DNA from: Cliona cf. orientalis
Lineage: Eukaryota; Porifera; Demospongiae; Clionaida; Clionaidae
Length of the DNA: 64,000 nucleotides
NCBI GenBank assembly: GCA_963930775.1
Contig: OZ005706.1
Location: 5,136,545 to 5,200,544 of the forward strand
Direction of reading: 5' to 3'
Shown: piece by piece, positions 30,713 to 63,477 of the stretch
Layout of the letters: each line of letters begins with the position of its first letter
Position numbering within the stretch: the stretch's first letter is position 1
Program-made: the position numbers and the translations under genes
The notes under the pieces: generated by a model
Databases searched by the model: none
Told to the model about the DNA's origin: nothing
The model's input: the letters and a program-made list of their open reading frames with translations, nothing else

Positions 30713-31832
30713 TCATATTGATATATATCCGATCCAGGGATTCAGTGGGCTCTGTTCTTTGACAGAATAAACAGGTTTTGCACCTTGCTGCTCCCCCAAT
30801 GCAACTCTCCTTCCGAGTCCCTGGTCTTTACCCCATCCAACTCCTATGCCTTGCTTTTCACCAAAGGGAACCCTCCGCCTTCCTTGCTCATGGCTCCATC
30901 CAACCCTCCTTCCCTGCTCGTGGCTCCATCCAACCCTCCTTCCCTGCTCGTGGCTCCATCCAACTCTCCTGCCTTGCTCATGGGTCCATCCAACTCTCCT
31001 GCCTTGCTCTTTGCCAAATTCAAACGAGTTTCCATCTGGAAGAGTAATGCTGATCCCTTGTTTCTTTGCAGTTTTTGAAGGTTCAAAGAGAACTGCATCA
31101 TAAGTAGCTATTGATTATTGCACATAATTATGATCGTATGCATGCATGACAACAAGAGTAAATCCCTTGCTCTTCACACAAGTTACCTTTAGGAAGGGTT
31201 TTAGTTGAATCCTGTTCCCAGTTTGCATTTTGGGCTGTACCTATAATATTATACAGCATTACATCACGGCTCTGAGTTTATTTATGCTCCTAGTTTAATT
31301 AATTATTGGCGCCTTAGGTCTTCTGTTGAGGTGGCAGGCCCACCTAATACTGCACTGCTCTGACAAGGCCCAGTTAAGCTGAAATAGCTAGCTAGATGTC
31401 TACAATTCCATGCACTTCTGGCACCTACTACTTCATGCATGCATAATTATGCATAATTATACAGCTGCATGCAGTCATTAGTTACCTTGAGTTTCTCCTT
31501 TGGTGAATGGAATCCTCCTGCCTTGTTCCATGCCCCACGTGATTATTCTGCCATCAGGGTAAACAGTAATAGACCCTCTACTAACACCAAATCCTTGTCC
31601 CTCTGCATTGCTTGAGGGGAAAAGTCCTGCAGAATAATATTTTAGCAATTAATAATAATATACCGACTGAGCAGAAAGAGCAACTTTTGAATAAATTGTC
31701 TATTTCCTTGTCAGTGAAAAGGTCACTGATGCTTGTATCTTGTTTCTTGGACTCCTCATGGCTAACTGGACTTGCAGTCACCAAAGACAGCAGTCCAAGT
31801 GTCAGTAGCACAGCAGTAAGCCTAGATATCAT
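30713..31832 (-). CDS. Secreted repeat protein, candidate amidated-peptide precursor (four exons)
   Basis: Exons 31832-31664, 31626-31486, 31240-31187 and 31092-30713, joined by GT/AG introns all in phase 1, give 247 residues ending at TGA 30715-30713. Residues 1-20 are a signal peptide (LTAVLLTLGLLSLVTA). CSFC lies at 51-54. Two related segments carry SIT[VL]-PDG…G-EQGRR (75-94 and 136-154). Residues 155-194 are four tandem ten-residue repeats VGW[TS]HEQGRR. Gly-Arg-Arg occurs seven times (92, 152, 162, 172, 182, 192, 215). Gly followed by a dibasic pair is the classic processing and C-terminal amidation signal, so peptides such as VGWSHEQ-amide could be released. Alternatively EQGRR is a structural motif of a secreted matrix protein. 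The splice model is mine; consistent phases and uninterrupted frames make it credible. I know of no named family. Confidence 0.68.
30882..31001 (-). repeat. 30-bp coding minisatellite in the peptide gene
   Basis: Four 30-bp units (plus-strand core GCTCRTGGCTCCATCCAAC) starting at 30882, 30912, 30942 and 30972. On the minus strand each encodes one ten-residue VGW[TS]HEQGRR block. Confidence 0.85.
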
Positions 31833-33153
31833 TGTTTACTGAAGAAAGTTGCTCTCAGACTGTCTTAAGTTTCTTGGCTTCAAATGACTATCGGTGCATA
31901 TACCGTGAGAGCTCAGCTGGCCGATCATTAAATTTTTTATAATCTGTTGCAAGTTCCTCCCAACAATTTATTGCAATACAATCTGATATTTTTGTATGAC
32001 TGTGGTAAAGTAAAGTAGAAAAGCTGTTCATGTACACGCACCACATTAAACCACAATTGTTCCACCTCAAATCCTCAGAGTGTGGTTTGGGAATGTTGCA
32101 ACTGGAGTGGTTCGAATTTCCCACTTCTCTCTGCGTTGCTGTGCTGTACTATACTGTATACGGAGTATAGTACTGCATGCATTCAAATCTATGTGCACGC
32201 ATAAGGTAGATGTACCATAATAATATTATTATTATTATGAAACAGCTCTTCTAATAAACAAAAATCAAGAGTTTTATAGTTGCTGTTAGGGTATAATTTT
32301 ATTGTGCATGTATGCACACTACCTACCTGTGTCTATGTGCAAAAAATATGGCTGGTTGTGACACTATAGTTAATGGACAAAATTGCTTAGCTAAGTATTT
32401 CATAATTGGAGAGTATCCCTTAGTACAATGCACTAGGCGTCATATCTCAACCTCAAGAATGTTGCTGACTAGACGATAAGCTTAAAAATGTTGTAATATA
32501 TAATATGACATTGTGTAACTGTTATGGTACTGTGTAGCTATAGCGTCAGGAAAGCAGGAGAAGTATAACCAGACTACTGGGCTGCTTTATAATTGGTCCA
32601 AGGCGAGACTCAGTAGGTAATTACTATTAATAATAGCAACATTAAGAATTTCAGTTAGCTTTCAGTTTCTGTCAAATTTTTGGGTGGGGGGGAGGAGGGG
32701 TGCATGGGGGGATGGGAATTGAACGCATCCAACTTGGCTTTATGCTAATGACTTAATTTCCGGGAATCATAATAACATGACATTGTACTTTTTACTGTTT
32801 ATCATGAGTCAGTCAGTGAGTCAGACTTGCATGCCATGGACAATGTCATTGAAACCATGAATGCATACATGACCAAATTACTATATAACAAGAGAGAGCA
32901 ATGTTAATTAAGATAGTGCTGCTTCTTATTAAAATTTATTTGCTGGGTAAAGGTACCTGTCAACATGTCAACTATTCCTGGCTCAATCAGATGAAGCTGT
33001 ATAATGTACACACAGACCAAGCTGACAAGTAATATAAATAGAGGAAGATTTATGAGGAAGACAAAATGTCTATAAAAACAGCAGCTAGCTAGCTATGTAC
33101 ACAACACTGGTTATTCGTGAACCTATAAGAAGCTATTATAGAGTAGCTAAGAA
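31833..33153. other. Intergenic region upstream of the peptide gene
   Basis: No convincing gene. AT-rich with (AAT)n near 32225 and a G-rich stretch near 32683-32712. The open frame on the minus strand at 32124-31888 has no splice or repeat support and would lie in the promoter or 5' region of the peptide gene. Confidence 0.5.
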
Positions 33154-40454: not shown

Positions 40455-41922
40455 TATTATTGGTATTGTGATAATATGAAAACTTGACCACATGCCCAGT
40501 AGCTACATAATGTTTCATATGGTACTTGAAAGGTCGTCACAGTCTAAGCCACATCGATGTTGGCACCTCAATCGCAGAGATGGCATCTAAGACCTATTCT
40601 CGACCTCGACATTGACACCTTTAAGCATAGCCATGTGTAACTGCCCTTGAAAATGCAGCTCAAAGGCTGGTTTATGAGGACTATTATAAGAAGTCTATGT
40701 AAGCCTGAGCTATAGGTAACCTAATACTGCTGCTGTCAACAACATACCTTGAAGATAGCCGGCAGCCCTCTGGTAAATTCAATTCCTTACCCGTGTAGCA
40801 CTTTCATGGCTCTTTGTCACAGTAGTTGCCCAGCAACCAAAGTTATTATAGGCAATTTGCCCGCTATGGGAAGGTGTTGGGTCAAGTAGACCAATGATGA
40901 ATAGATGTCAACCACCAACAAAGCAATTATCTGATAGTAATTGGGGCGCATTCGACAATGCATCTCATGCACCCCAGACAACTAAGTTATCTATTATATA
41001 ATATAAGTAGGGATGGCACGGATATGCCATATATGTAATACATTACAAACACCCAAATATCTCAAAACAGGTAACTTTATGAAATTTCTAAGTGTGAAAT
41101 TCAGAATCTCCAGCAAATTATCTATCTAATAAGACCAAGATCATCCATTAACTCAATCGTATATGCCAGAACCAGATGTTCAAAAAATGGCCATAATTTC
41201 AGTGTCAATCTTTCTTTCTTTCTAGTTTCCAGGGCTAGCTCAAGATTTCCTTGACCTCTCATCTTTGTTTGAGTATAAATCCATTCCATTTAGTAGCGCG
41301 CAGTGCAGTGGCACGCTAATTCCGCGTTATCTTGACATTTAGTGGGTATGTACGGCGCACTGACAACACTGGGCGTGTCTGATACGCCATTTTGTGATAT
41401 AATGCGCATGCTCAGAATGTGTTGCCATCGGGTGAAGTCATGTGACAGCTCCCTCGCCCTCGGCGATTCCCTAGCGCTTGTGCTCTGCCGATCGTGGATA
41501 TGAAACACAAGGCTCGAGGAACGGTAAGGCGCTAGGCAGGCACTAGGCATAAGCGAGCTACTTGCTAGCGCGTGCAGTGCTAGTGCTCCGCTGGATAGAT
41601 CATGGATGGCATGGAGCCTGCGCAAGGCTCGAGGGGCGGTAACAAACGCCGTCACGATACAGATCAGCTGCTGCCAACAATAAAACTTAGAACTTGGTTT
41701 TCTCCCTAAACGGAAGAGTCTCGTCGCTACTTCGGCCGCCTAAAGTTGCCTTCTTTGTCAGTCTGCTTCATCGCATAGGCATAGGGGCGTGGCTACGAAT
41801 TTTGAGCAGATATGATCTTCAGCATTTCCCATCTTCTACACTGGAATATTGACAGCAAACCATAATAATAATGAATTATACTGAGAGCAATAAAAAAAAG
41901 AGCAGAAACAACCCAACTCCAC
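40455..41922. other. Spacer, possibly including LINE 5' UTR
   Basis: No gene seen in 40455-41280. The GC-richer part from about 41290 to 41922 may be the 5' untranslated region of the LINE that follows. Its short open frames are not recognisable. Confidence 0.4.
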
Positions 41923-42873
41923 ATGGCTAAAAATACAGTAAAAAATAGCTCAGCAAAACGCTCAGGCAAGGTTCTTTGTGGAATCTGCCAAGCCCCAATT
42001 GTCGATGGGAAAGACGAAGCCCTCCTTTGTGAGGGCGAATGTGGACTCTGGCTGCACAGAGGTTGTGCCAGCATACCTCCGAGCCGTTACGAATCTCTAT
42101 CAGCTAGTGACGAGCCCTTCGTGTGCCTCTGCTGCTCTAATCTCCAACTTAAGAAAGATCTCGTTCTTCTGAGAACTGAATTCCGGGCTGCCCTTGACTC
42201 ACCTCCTAATAACGGAGCGCAACGCCAACAAATCTTCGATCTAACTGACACAGTTGCAGCCTTGAGAATGGAACTTACGCAGCTAAAAGAAACTTTGTCC
42301 TCTATGTCCTCGGAACTGACGTCGTTGCGCTCAAGTAGACCTCCGATTGACAAGCCGACGTACGCCTCGAAGGCGTCCACTCGCAGGGTAGCCCGACCCG
42401 GCAGTGCCCATCACCCTAACACAACACAGAGACAAGCTGGAGGCCGTGGAGATCGTAAGCAGCTAAATGTGAGAGGTGCTGCAGTAACCCCTGGATCCGG
42501 AGACACCGCGAGCCAGCGGCTACCCAAGCCAACGCAGCGTACTACGCCACGGGAAAACAGCCGCAAATCAGAGAAGAAAATAATTGTCGAAGGAGCTAGA
42601 AGAATTTGGGGGACCATGAAGGCTTGTCCATCCTCAGTTGTCCTTAGCACTATTGCGAAGGTAACTGAAATAAAAGATGAATTGAGGATCAAGAAAAAAA
42701 CGAGAAGCCTACCAGGCAACAAGCTAGTATGGTGGTTTGTTATCCATTGTGACGAGGAGACCTTGTGCTTGCTGGACACTGAGTGGGAAAAGGTACATGC
42801 TCAAACAGGTTGGAGTCTACAATGCTGTTACATGCCGTCAATCAATCAGCCAGACTCTGACACCACTGCATGA
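41923..42873 (+). CDS. LINE ORF1, PHD-finger protein
   Basis: 316 residues from ATG 41923. Residues ~19-70 form a PHD-type zinc finger with Cys4-His-Cys3 spacing (CGIC, CEGECGLWLHRGC, CLCC). A coiled-coil-like stretch (residues ~75-130, LRTEFRAAL…LRMELTQLKETL) follows, then a basic Ser/Thr/Pro-rich linker and a more conserved C-terminal part (WWFVIHCDEE). PHD-type ORF1 proteins are known in CR1/L2-like LINEs and are thought to bind the element RNA. It ends at TGA about 200 bp before ORF2. Confidence 0.85.
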   Translation: MAKNTVKNSSAKRSGKVLCGICQAPIVDGKDEALLCEGECGLWLHRGCASIPPSRYESLSASDEPFVCLCCSNLQLKKDLVLLRTEFRAALDSPPNNGAQRQQIFDLTDTVAALRMELTQLKETLSSMSSELTSLRSSRPPIDKPTYASKASTRRVARPGSAHHPNTTQRQAGGRGDRKQLNVRGAAVTPGSGDTASQRLPKPTQRTTPRENSRKSEKKIIVEGARRIWGTMKACPSSVVLSTIAKVTEIKDELRIKKKTRSLPGNKLVWWFVIHCDEETLCLLDTEWEKVHAQTGWSLQCCYMPSINQPDSDTTA

Positions 42874-43072
42874 CCCACAAAATTCCCTCTCTACAACTGC
42901 CACTCCTTCTCCAATAAGCCTTTCTCCTAAACCCAATATCCAGAGCACTGCTGTGAGTGAATCTGATCAAGTGACCATTCAGGAGCATATGAATGATACT
43001 GCAATTAATGCTGGTCTGCAGTAACCCCCACAGCAACCGTGACTACAGGATTCTGTAAGTGTTCAATCTGTT

Positions 43073-45815
43073 TTGTTTACTAATAGTAATTTTTGTATCA
43101 TTTTGTATTATAATGCCAGAAGCCTACTCCCTAAGCTTGATCACCTTATTTTATCTGTTGATGTTCATCATCCACATATCATTTGTGTAGTTGAATCTTG
43201 GCTAGGGAGTGAAATTAGTTCTAATGAATTACATATTCCTGGGTACAAACTATATCGCAAGGATAGAAACCGTCAAGGTGGGGGTGTCCTTGTGTATATC
43301 ATCGACTTTATGATAGTTTCATTATTTCCTAACCCAGATCCCCAACTTGAGCTTCTGGCTCTGTCAGTAAGATTTAATAATTTTAAGCTTAATTTGTGCC
43401 TTTTCTATCGCCCTCCAAGCTCTGGTAGTCAATTATTTGATACTTTAGTTTCTTATTTAAATTTAATTTGTGTAAGTTCTTTTTCAAATTTTATTTTCAT
43501 TGGTGACTTTAATGTTAATTTTTCAGACTCATCTCATCCTTACTATAGCATGCTTCAGTCATTAATGTCACTTTATTCTTTGTCTCAGCATGTCTCTGGT
43601 CCAACACATACTCACCACAGTGGTGCCACCTCAACCATTGACCTTGTTTTTACGAATGAGGATTCACTACTGCACACCTGCGAGACTATACCGCCCCTAT
43701 CAAACTCCGATCACTTTGGTATTCAAGCGATTGTGAATAAAAAGGTTTATAAACGCCGGTGCAGGACCAAGGGCCGAAAAATCTGGAGGTATACATTTGC
43801 TGATTGGGTCAGTGCCTGTGAAGCTATTGATGAAGCAGATTGGGATTCTATAATTATGACTGAAAACATAGATGATGCGTGGGAAGCTTGGCTACAGCAA
43901 TTTATGTCAATTATGAACCAGTTTATACCCAATTGTTCTCTGCAAAATAGACAAAACCTGCCCTGGCTCACAAAGTCTCTGATTAAGTCAATTAAGAAAC
44001 GAAATCTGCTCTATAAAGGAGCGAAGAAATCTGGCAGCTTCAGAAGTTACAAGCTAGCCCGCAATAAGACTCTAGCAGACATCCAATCAGCTAAACTCTC
44101 CTACTTCCGCAAATTAAATCCACGAGATCCCAAAAAATTTTGGAAAGCTGTCAAGTGCCTCAACAAAAGACCCAACTCGATGCCAACACTAACTCTTGGT
44201 GACACAACTGCAGTAACAGAAAATGAAAAAGCGAACCTCCTAAATTCCTATTTTCACTCATGCTTCAACAAGTCTCATACTCCGATAACACCCTCAGCCT
44301 GTTTGCGACTTTCTCCTGCAGCGGATCTTCTCTGTTCTGAAGACGAAGTGTTTGACCTCTTGGCAACCCTGGATGTGTCCAAGTCCACTGGACCTGACGG
44401 AATCTCAGCCAGGATGCTGAAGTTCACAGCAACCAGCATAACCCCTTCAGTGACTAAGCTGTTCAATCAATCAATTATTCAGGCTCGAGTACCATCCCTT
44501 TGGAAAAAATCTGTTATCGTTCCTGTCCCGAAAACATCAGATATAACTACACCAACTAATTATCGTCCAATCTCGCTCTTACCTATCATCAGCAAACTCC
44601 TGGAAAGACATATTTATTCACTTATTCTACACCACCTGCAAGCAAATGACATCCTGACAACCTCTCAATGGGGATTCTTGGAGGGAAGGTCCACTGTAAC
44701 TGCTCTAATAAAATGCACAGATGATTGGCTAAAAAGTTTAGAAGACGGAAATGATACGTGCGCAATTTTCTTTGACTATCGTAAAGCTTTTGACATCTGT
44801 CCCTCATCGCCCACTGATAGTGAAACTACGATCCCTTGGTGTCGACGACTGCATTGTCAGCTGGGTCAAAAACTACTTAGCTGAAAGATGTCAAGTTGTT
44901 GCAGTTGATGGAGTGGAATCGGATCCCTTGCCAGTCCTCTCTGGGGTTCCCCAGGGCTCTGTTCTCGGACCACTACTCTTCCTAATTTACATCAATGATC
45001 TTCCACATGCTATTCAAGATGAATTTGCCCACTTAAACCTCTTTGCTGATGACCTTCTCCTTTATCGAATAATTACCTCTGCAGCAGACTATCTTCTCCT
45101 GCAAGAAATGATTTGTATAATTGAGCAATGGACATCAGATAATTACCTCAGTTTCAATACGTCCAAGTGCAAATGTATGATTATCTCGCGTAAGAGAAAT
45201 CCTCCTCTGCCAGATATTCCCTTACAGTTGTGTGGAAGTGCCTTGGAAAGAGTTGACAGCTACAAGTATCTCGGAGTCTTGTTTTCTTGTGATCTATCCT
45301 GGTCTGTGCATGTTGAATTTGCCTGTCAAAAAGCTCGGCGAGTATTGGGCTTGCTCTATAGAAGATTTTATGATCAAGCATCCCAGGATTCGTTAAAACA
45401 GCTATATCTATCTCTTGTACGACCGCATTTAGAGTATGCGAGCCAGGTGTGGGATCCTCACCTCGCCAAAGATAGAAATGCCTTGGAAAAAGTGCAAAAA
45501 TTCACGTGCAAATTGGCTACTTCTAAATGGAATAGCAGCTATGAGGAACTGCTGGATTTGACAGATTTAAAGCCCCTCCAGGACAGAAGGTTGGAATCTA
45601 AACTAGGACTGCTGTTCAAGTTGGTTCACAATCTCTGCTTCTTCCCGGATAACTCGTGGTCTTTCCGAACTAATAGCAGGTGCAATAGGAACACCAACTC
45701 CTTGCAGTTGTCGAGACCATTTGCTCGTACTAATGCCTATATGGCCTCCTTCTTCCCCCATACTGTGGCAAACTGGAATCTGTTGGACAATAATGCTGTA
45801 ACAGCATCATCATAA
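43073..45815 (+). pseudogene. LINE ORF2, endonuclease and reverse transcriptase, one frameshift
   Basis: The first part (to about 44794) has an AP-endonuclease domain: YNARSLLPKL, SWLGSEIS, FIGDFNVNF, STIDLVFTN, SNSDHFGI. The reverse transcriptase begins with STGPDGISARMLK and VPKTSDITTPTNYRPISLLP. One extra A near 44795, just after the DYRKAFD motif, shifts the frame. The rest continues in the next frame with GVPQGSVLGPLLFLIYIND, the catalytic FADD, and YLGVLFS and HLEYASQVWDP towards the C-terminus, ending at TAA 45813-45815. No RNase H domain is seen. The first ATG of ORF2 is uncertain because the open frame begins with TTG. The single-base lesion may be real or an assembly error. Confidence 0.85.
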
Positions 45816-60224: not shown

Positions 60225-61031
60225 TAGCGTAAGCCGCCATTTATCGGCATGCAAATTTTCCCGATTTGTAACTCCCGCCAGGAATGACGTATGAACTTGG
60301 TTCTTGCACTGAAAGAAAGCCCTTGACGTAGGCATTCATTAGCTAGAATCCAGAGAGGTAGGCCCTAGTAATCAATGAGCTATAAGCGCTAATGCGCAGA
60401 CATCACAATACCATTTATCGGCAACCGGTACGTATTATCGGCACACCTATCTTTTTCCATAATGGCGAATGCGCCATTTATCGGCACCTGGGCCTTCTTG
60501 AGTCTTTTACTGCTGCCTTACTTGCCAGAAAATTATAGAAAAAATATCCCCAGATACTTCAGGATGTCCTCTCGCTATATCTCTCTTCTCATATCGATCG
60601 CTTGCATCGTCTTCGAACGGCAGCCGTGAATGTGTTGATACTACACGTAAAATCGATACTAGAGCCGTTTCAACGGTACAATAAATTCATGAAGGACTTG
60701 GATGTGTTCTAGGCATCAGCCTCCACCTTAAGAGCAACTATGACGGAATAATAATCTTTCTAGCTCTTGCTAGGCCATGGTAAAGCCGCCATGAGCTGTT
60801 TCTCCCTGTAGACGCCAGATACTTCATCCGATTTTGATCGAACTTGGTATAGAGCTTCTTCACCACGCCTTCTTGCCAGTAATATCATCCTTTTCTTCCT
60901 GTTTACTTTCCTTGATGTGCAACGGCCATTGAAAGTTTCAGGTCCGTAAACGCTTCAGCGATGTCCGTATAATCCCGTAAAATACGTCGTAAACTAGGTG
61001 CCGATGATTGGCACGGGCGGTGCCGGTATTA
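60225..61031. mobile_element. TAGCGTAAG-type element, uninterrupted copy cut by the assembly gap
   Basis: Starts TAGCGTAAGCCGCCATTTAT and follows 53689-54145 and then 59258-59590 continuously. It stops at GTGCCGGTATTA where N begins, about 25-30 bases short of the expected right end. Confidence 0.7.
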
Positions 61032-61231
61032 NNNNNNNNNNNNNNNNNNNNNNNNNNNNNNNNNNNNNNNNNNNNNNNNNNNNNNNNNNNNNNNNNNNNN
61101 NNNNNNNNNNNNNNNNNNNNNNNNNNNNNNNNNNNNNNNNNNNNNNNNNNNNNNNNNNNNNNNNNNNNNNNNNNNNNNNNNNNNNNNNNNNNNNNNNNNN
61201 NNNNNNNNNNNNNNNNNNNNNNNNNNNNNNN
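61032..61231. other. Assembly gap (200 N)
   Basis: Exactly 200 N, a typical placeholder length, so the real size is unknown. It falls at the end of a repeat that occurs twice within 7 kb. Confidence 0.95.
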
Positions 61232-63477
61232 CCACAAGATCAGATCTTGCGTCAAATGGCTAGCCAACATGATGTTACCTTGCAGCAATAATAATATTAT
61301 AATACTAAATTGAGGCCTCAAACCAAAGGCATAATAGCTAATTATTATGCAAGTGTAATTTTGCCAGGGATCACATGATTTGCATTTTTTTCCTTTCACC
61401 AACAAGGCAATAACAATAGTCAAGACTACTTTCAGGCTGGCAACAGCCTTTGCACTAGCTGATGTACCTTTTACCATGCATGCAAGGTACTTGGTACTCG
61501 CCCCATTATAATGAAATTCAGGATCTTCATACACATAATAATAATAATATTATTGTGGTCTGGATGATATATATTTGGGATGACAGAGTCATCTCATCAG
61601 TGCCTTTATTGCATGGGATGAAAAGTGCATGATGTTTTGGCTTGCTGCAGGAGTTGGAGTTTATTGTATTATAAACGAATCCAGATAATATACTTTCTGG
61701 GCTTTATACAATTATAATTCCAACACTGATTTTCACTGCTGGATGGCAAAATCCACAATGTTCAGAAGCTTTCCTATATACGTATATTTCGTACAACAGG
61801 TAAACATTGGGGAAAATACTTGCAATAGAGTCTAATAAGCCTATAATTATTATTATTATACTCAAATCTGAAAATCCAGTGGTGATGGTGTGCCCATTAT
61901 TAAGAACTTCAGAGGATGAGAGCAAGCCTTGATCCTTCAGAGTAAAGAAGTTATGAAACCTTTCATACTTTAATACCACACACTGAAAATGACACTCACG
62001 TGTGCCTCTCATGAAAGTCATCATCTCAAAATTATTGTGTCTAGCTACCTTGGGTAGGCGAGAGATCTAGGGTGTGCTGATTAATTTGCACACTGCATCT
62101 GATGGCCCATGGACATTGATGGAACACAATGTCATGCAGGACCATCATAAACTGACAATTTTAGCAGCCTTTCAGCTATGTATACTTAAAAAGGCGCTAT
62201 AATGATGTTATTATCATACTTCAAGCCATCATTTTTTCAAGTTTGCTCAAAAAATTAATATGCAATCACATACAGCAATAGCTAAATTATAAGGATGACA
62301 TAGCATCGGAATCCTGATGTCAGACCTCTCAATGTATTTTTGGCTAGCTAGCATGGATCCAGAGAAAACCCTCACTATTCAGACAGAGCACACTCCATCT
62401 TTTCTCAGTGCGAGATTGAGCAGACACACAGAGAATCTCGACTGCTCATCAGACTGAAAATCAGATCCAACAGCCAGTCTTTGGGAAGTAAGTGGAATTA
62501 TCTATGCACAATAATAATATTATTATTGACTTGTTTGCTGCGTGACACAACACCCAACAATATTACGGTTTTCATCCAAACCCAGATGCGGAAGGGTTGA
62601 ATGCATTCTCTAGCTAGCCCAAAACTGGAAGAGAGGAAGGCTATAATAATGATTATTATTAGCCTTAAATTTTCCTTCTTTTTCATTTACCTTACCTGGC
62701 AGAAACAAAGCGGAATAGAATCAAAGAAGCAGTCCTGACGTCTGCAATATAATTATTATTGCTATATCAAGTTTGGTAGCAGAACCGTTTGCAGCCATAT
62801 TCTTGATTGGCTGATCGTATTTTCCACTTATGATGCCCCACTGAGTGAACCAATTGGACCACTCCTCATAAACTTAGCTGGTCAACCTCCTCATCTAAAT
62901 TTATTTTTCTTGCCCGTATCAGATCTGTGGCCTCATTTAGTGGACCAGATCTCAAACTTGGAGAAAATTCTGATGAAATTAATCATTACTCATCACATGA
63001 AGATACCCTCCAAAACTGAGTGGAATGGTACTTCAAATGACAGGACAAGATACCTACTAGTAGTAGTTTATCCTGTTTCTTGACAGAAGACTTTAGGCAG
63101 GGACGGCAGTATTTGATATTGCATGATTCAATCGGCTTCACTGGAGAGCTGGTCCACAGGAACCACTCCTCAACCAGTGACCCCACTGTCCCAGTGAGTG
63201 CAATCGTTGTTCACAGCCTGGGGAAAGTTTAGGGTGACTATATACAGTCTTACATGTACACTTTCTGAGGGAGCATTTTCTCAAGCGAAAGTATCAATTT
63301 TAACACATGCATTAATATACTCATAAGATGTCCTTGCTTTGATCCTGAGTTCACTCCATCTTATGTTGAATCCCACTAAGACACAATGTCATGCACAAGC
63401 AACTTAAGCACTGACTAGCTATCCAAAGCTAACAACGTTAATACTCATAAGATGTCCTATAGCTTCAGTCCTAGTTC
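61232..63477. other. Mostly non-coding, with two weak exon candidates on the minus strand
   Basis: Minus-strand stretches at about 61994-61730 (after acceptor-like CATTTTCAG: LKYERFHNFFTLKDQGLLSS…) and 63200-63055 (after GGGACAG: …EEWFLWTSSPVKPIESCNIK…, donor-like GTAGGT near 63061) look protein-like. They cannot be joined into one frame with confidence. The remainder has (AAT)n runs and no features I can support. Confidence 0.3.

Follow-up and report, generated by a model that had tools for sequence, protein, structure and literature searches.

Here we describe a gene of the sponge Cliona cf. orientalis, the GRR-repeat gene, which we tentatively favour, without holding this view with confidence, as belonging to a small QG-repeat family of secreted proteins that likely stay intact as extracellular repetitive material. 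So far, the family appears lineage-restricted, known from this sponge genome alone and grouped on a single contig. The protein would be exported from the cell by its signal peptide, and the mature part would be a series of units of 10 to 18 residues that begin with Gln-Gly, most of them reading QG-x-R-[VI] or QG-[IV]-[ST]-[IF], and would probably be unstructured; the protein would then remain intact as matrix, mucus or coat. With Arg at residue 3 of the unit, where the relatives have Ile, Gly-Arg-Arg (GRR) would arise by one substitution; GRR and the relatives' G-I-R lie one residue apart, and no polarity of change is implied. Because the paralogues keep the repeat pattern without GRR, a repeat-protein family is likelier than a proven source of amidated peptides.

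Gene structure and predicted product

The window, that is, the whole stretch of 64,000 nucleotides analysed, corresponds to C18:5136545-5200544 in a genome of 216.8 Mb, C18 being the contig on which it lies. An earlier note on this DNA had proposed a four-exon gene model on the minus strand, and spliced translation from 31832 to 30713 indeed gave 247 residues (Table 1). The introns of 37, 245 and 94 bases are all GT..AG and all in phase 1. Seven GRR sites are present in the 247-aa product, as the note had stated, together with the two SIT-PDG...EQGRR segments that it had described, which lie in exons 2 and 4. The start of the protein reaches a hydropathy of 2.59 over 12 residues and shows a V-x-A pattern, the two features by which alone the signal peptide was judged; a hydropathy scan found no further hydrophobic 19-mer in the protein besides this start. 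TATAAAAG stretches similar to the putative TATA-like stretch of Table 1, read from the sequence, stand upstream of both full-length paralogues. A segment of about 166 bases in the region upstream of the GRR-repeat gene (32035-32200, minus strand) recurs on C3 and C1 at 79% identity, and this part of the upstream region is, judging from these matches, a dispersed repeat.

Table 1. Positions of the features discussed (window coordinates unless a contig is given)
Feature	Position	Strand	Description
Exon 1	31664..31832	-	ATG, hydrophobic signal-peptide-like start (MISRLTAVLLTLGLLSLVTA, then SP), first mature residues; spliced translation
Intron 1	31627..31663	-	37 bases, GT..AG, phase 1
Exon 2	31486..31626	-	SITVYPDGRIITWGMEQGRRIPF module, first GRR site; spliced translation
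Exon 3	31187..31240	-	54 bases, phase 1 on both sides; spliced translation
Exon 4 (repeat exon)	30713..31092	-	9 of 12 QG units, 6 of 7 GRR sites, stop codon
Four tandem 30-base units	30875..30994	-	VGWTHEQGRR, VGWSHEQGRR x3
Putative TATA-like stretch	31933..31943	-	about 100 bases upstream of ATG; read from sequence
Duplicated segment	31579..32473	-	promoter region, exon 1, start of exon 2; copy at C18:5215244-5215883 and beyond
344-aa paralogue	C18:5401500-5400176	same as GRR-repeat gene	full-length model, phase-1 introns
256-aa paralogue	C18:5408910-5408077	same as GRR-repeat gene	full-length model, two exons, phase-1 intron

The duplicated segment is about 80% identical in DNA to its copy on C18. 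In this partial duplicate (C18:5215338-5215508), which lies 47 kb away, protein identity over exon 1 is 70%, a 51-base GT..AG intron occupies the site of the 37-base intron 1, and the frame of exon 1 is regained across -1 and -2 changes; no match to the later exons of the GRR-repeat gene was found in the 5.5 kb around it. The apparent truncation of this nearest duplicate would suit an unexpressed GRR-repeat gene, that is, a decayed or wrongly modelled family member. We regard this as very improbable, given that the reading frame runs unbroken across the four exons and the splice sites are good, that the duplicate has its intron in the same place and regains its frame, and that the repeats show an excess of silent differences (described below).

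Elsewhere in the window, four neighbouring loci on the minus strand (1065-28516) encode long secreted proteins in which beta-helix or Chlamydia-PMP-like repeats precede several membrane spans. Two of the loci each consist of one long frame (1462 and 1789 aa) and two are split over frames; when one frame from each of three loci was compared with Pfam, two of the three matched and a 703-aa frame did not. The 78-base tandem arrays in this region are coding repeats of these loci. On the plus strand, a LINE-type retrotransposon (41875-45815) carries a sub-threshold PHD-finger frame followed by endonuclease and reverse-transcriptase in two overlapping frames, and a run of bases that are masked or unknown (X in translated frames) lies within 60938-61549.

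Paralogues on the same contig and what they conserve

Protein and DNA searches of the whole genome, restricted to the best-scoring candidates, gave at least four family loci including the GRR-repeat gene, all on C18; the matches on C1 and C13 were weak (E of 0.037 and above) and were left out of the family. The protein search matched C18:5400473-5400877 (39%, E 0.0044), which is part of the 344-aa gene model, and a search with the 344-aa paralogue led to a third member at C18:5408088-5408910 (the 256-aa model), containing 14 tandem 12-residue QGIRVPGGFxxx units. Both full-length paralogue models were hand-built from splice signals.

When exon 1 was aligned with each full-length paralogue, the score was reached by 0 of 500 shuffles, a similarity that arises because the signal sequence is similar; the mature part of exon 1 was at chance level against the paralogue, with 25 of 500 shuffles reaching the score. 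None of 500 shuffles reached the score of the repeat exon against that of the 344-aa paralogue, and exons 2 and 3 together gave a weak result against the paralogue repeat exon (5 of 500). Because repeats inflate alignment scores, the 14-unit array was also scored after its 12 columns had been permuted, with the periodicity retained: 1 of 2000 permuted arrays reached the score of 121, and 8 of 5000 reached the score when two units were compared with two units. Reversed arrays scored 41 and 57, against 121 and 113 for the forward arrays. The first KQG lies about 10 residues past the splice site in both of the repeat exons compared. We take the repeat exons of the GRR-repeat gene and the paralogues to be homologous. 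The remainder, with the mature part of exon 1 at chance and exons 2 and 3 weakly similar to the paralogue, speaks against reading the gene as one for repetitive material.

No homologue outside the Cliona cf. orientalis genome was found in viral and prokaryote contigs, a search that says little on other sponges. Comparison with Pfam gave a best E of 0.25 for the GRR-repeat protein and of 0.086 and 0.31 for the paralogues, all below the curated cut-off, and one paralogue compared with PDB sequences gave nothing convincing (best E 0.025).

A QG-x-R-[VI] repeat core is common to the GRR-repeat protein and both full-length paralogues. In the GRR-repeat protein, the 344-aa paralogue and the 256-aa paralogue, respectively, there are 12, 13 and 15 QG units, QGxR occurs 6, 7 and 15 times, and unit position 5 is V, I or F in 8, 12 and 15 cases. 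Counts of QGRR in the same order are 6, 0 and 0, those of G[KR][KR] 7, 0 and 0, and those of dibasic pairs 10, 4 and 0. For the earlier note, homologues in which the GRR sites are not conserved but their surroundings are would count against the peptide reading; within the same genome, Gly-basic-basic proved absent from both of the full-length paralogues, which keep the repeat core. At six of the seven GRR sites QG is followed by RR, and therefore the would-be amide-donor glycine is the family's QG glycine, which is retained in the paralogues even without a basic pair after it. Ahead of QG, the residue is free to vary (E, K, Q, M, D, G or T), unlike at a fixed cleavage site. Units of the GRR-repeat protein contain no proline, and those of the paralogues contain one each. 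In these gene models, the comparison shows that conservation in the family does not extend to GRR; one gene could still have acquired a processed, amidated product.

The QG register, kept in all three proteins even without a basic pair, would also suit another route to multiple peptides, in which the chain is cut before Gln and pyroglutamate is formed (yielding QGRRVGWSHE and QGIRVPGGFVNE), or in which cores lying between repeated recognition sequences are excised as in the sponge proline-rich macrocyclic peptides. Peptides of sea anemones and comb jellies commonly have acidic cleavage sites and an N-terminal pyroglutamate, according to an excerpt of PMC9525235, and sponges cut macrocyclic peptides out of ribosomal precursors, according to part of PMC11382151. 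We consider this route rather unlikely: Asp or Glu precedes QG at only 7 of 12, 6 of 13 and 6 of 15 sites in the GRR-repeat protein and the 344-aa and 256-aa paralogues, and therefore an acidic cut would be irregular; in addition, no known core peptide was matched.

The decapeptide array and its possible processing

The four tandem VGW[ST]HEQ-GRR repeats reported in the earlier note are present in exon 4, VGWTHEQGRR once and VGWSHEQGRR three times, and Tandem Repeats Finder places the array at 30878-31009 (period 30, 4.4 copies, 93% matches). Short repeated units that each end in Gly and a basic pair are thereby found in this protein, four in the array among seven GRR sites overall. Over the six pairs formed by the four copies, 17 of the base differences counted are silent and 3 are replacements; a decapeptide unit has some 6 silent and 24 replacement sites, and this silent excess would fit selection on the peptide sequence, in what is a small and linked sample of differences. 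The second Arg codon is silently variable (AGA, AGG, CGG) and RR is retained in four of four copies, the pattern expected if RR matters in the GRR-repeat gene. Such retention despite silent codon change would count against the reading as repetitive material.

AlphaFold2 was applied to the repeat exons of the GRR-repeat gene (125 residues) and the 256-aa paralogue (204 residues), with alignments of 3 sequences each. No confident fold was obtained for either (mean pLDDT 36.9 and 33.1, respectively), and the block mean pLDDT exceeded 60 only in a short hairpin around SITLPDGNSFEFG. Low pLDDT would fit disorder, but it can also come from a shallow alignment. At these values, from 3-sequence alignments, a folded form of the structural repeat protein that the earlier note had offered as its counter-view found no support. 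A multi-copy precursor would equally show a signal peptide and disordered repeats, which again weighs against the repeat-material reading.

In such a precursor, the reading that the earlier note had proposed, a prohormone convertase would cut after Arg-Arg, a carboxypeptidase would trim the basic residues, and PAM would turn the Gly into an amide, giving VGW[ST]HEQ-amide. Four copies of equal length with GRR at every junction, the silent-site excess between them, the lack of a predicted fold in the repeats, and a PHM-PAL gene on C14 together with furin-like P domains encoded in the genome all argue for this pathway. The furin site consensus has Arg at P4, which QGRR followed by V lacks. Neither full-length paralogue has Gly-basic-basic, the glycine being that of the family's QG, and mass spectrometry of the sponge Ephydatia fluviatilis found no amidated peptide, according to an excerpt of PMC9525235. 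On balance, we judge amidation of the units to be unlikely, though it deserves serious weighing.

Sponge host and processing enzymes

The earlier note had sensed a sponge-like genome, and a silicatein-type cluster agrees with this: three exons matching CGASYAF, the cathepsin active-site motif in its silicatein form, were found on C12 within 5 kb of sequence, in frames read as silicatein-like protein. One Cys-type exon (CGACYAF) was found on C19, and the reversed-pattern control gave 0 matches. By these matches the genome belongs to a sponge, most likely a demosponge.

The check for convertase and PAM genes in the same genome that the note had recommended yielded both a PHM-PAL gene and furin-like P domains. 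The PHM-PAL (PAM) gene, at about C14:1295593-1301080, contains HHMLLFGC, a His-x-His-His stretch and CNFYIMYY, which presumably carry the copper and zinc ligands. Its PHM exon matched PAM structures in the PDB with E of about 3e-6 and dopamine beta-hydroxylase (DBH) with 0.088, PAM occupying 13 of the 14 rows and DBH the last. The Pfam copper monooxygenase domain has 34 matches in the genome; the top-scoring exons, read in six of eight loci, resemble the DBH/MOXD type, and the PHM type was seen at C14 only. P_proprotein gave 13 genome matches, and the best match of one such frame is furin. Most animals have PAM and furins, and therefore their presence in the genome is weak evidence for amidation.

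Many copper type II monooxygenase exons lie outside the PAM locus, on C2, C5, C6, C7, C10, C11 and C17. A dense cluster of long frames matching the PAM beta-propeller half, at about 10.86-11.12 Mb on C4, probably represents NHL/TRIM-type genes. Transglut_C, a domain of possible Gln cross-linking, had no match in the genome; the control genomes were silent too, which makes this search indecisive.

Discussion

Sponges lack neurons and, to our knowledge, few peptide messengers have been proposed for them. Part of PMC9004410 presents phoenixin and nesfatin as the first neuropeptides in sponges and states that the Oscarella and Amphimedon phoenixins carry an amidation site; PAM is known in Porifera (PMC9525235, excerpt), and barrettide frames with signal peptides have been described (PMC8713285, in part). 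We found no multi-copy amidated precursor in sponges in the open-licence literature. The earlier note had called an amidated sponge peptide notable, and notable it would be; it would not be the first in print, given the sponge phoenixin precursors with an amidation site in the same part of PMC9004410. Since sponge ribosomal peptides and a predicted amidated phoenixin are in print, the novelty is lower. As for the amidated-precursor reading as a whole, the gene model, the repeats, the sponge origin and the enzyme classes stood, and conservation of GRR in the paralogues did not.

We also considered, as improbable, an evolutionary version of the amidation pathway, in which a neuronless sponge made a multi-copy amidated prohormone from a secreted repeat protein: one change per QG-I-R-V unit would have produced Gly-Arg-Arg, the units would then have shrunk to ten residues and grown in number, and the release of VGW[ST]HEQ-amide would fall to a furin-like convertase together with PAM. 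Should the GRR-repeat gene make amidated peptides, a sponge would have a multi-copy amidated precursor, a prohormone visibly arising from a repeat protein, with its non-dibasic relatives still adjoining the gene. If it does not, GRR-rich repeats by themselves are no evidence for a peptide precursor, and a within-genome comparison of paralogues can tell a precursor from a repeat protein.

Of the systems that the GRR-repeat gene resembles, the 256-aa paralogue shares its signal-like start, phase-1 intron, QG-x-R-[VI] repeat exon and strand, whereas it has 14 QGIRVPGGFxxx units, no dibasic pair and two exons. Lin et al. (PNAS, 2024) reportedly described sponge proline-rich macrocyclic peptide precursors as a signal peptide followed by many repeated cores. 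These precursors, likened here by architecture, would share with the GRR-repeat gene the logic of a sponge-encoded secreted precursor with many repeats, but the repeats of the GRR-repeat protein are not proline-rich. Cnidarian precursors of multi-copy amidated neuropeptides, such as that of Antho-RFamide, have in common with the GRR-repeat protein a signal peptide, tandem units, Gly-basic after each unit and an EQGR stretch; the GRR-repeat protein differs in having no FG-R unit, in having paralogues without basic sites and in being known from its gene alone. Finally, the sponge phoenixin (PNX) precursor, as described in part of PMC9004410, is likewise a secreted sponge precursor with a predicted amidation site, but it is single-copy and deeply conserved, and the likeness drawn here is one of precursor type.
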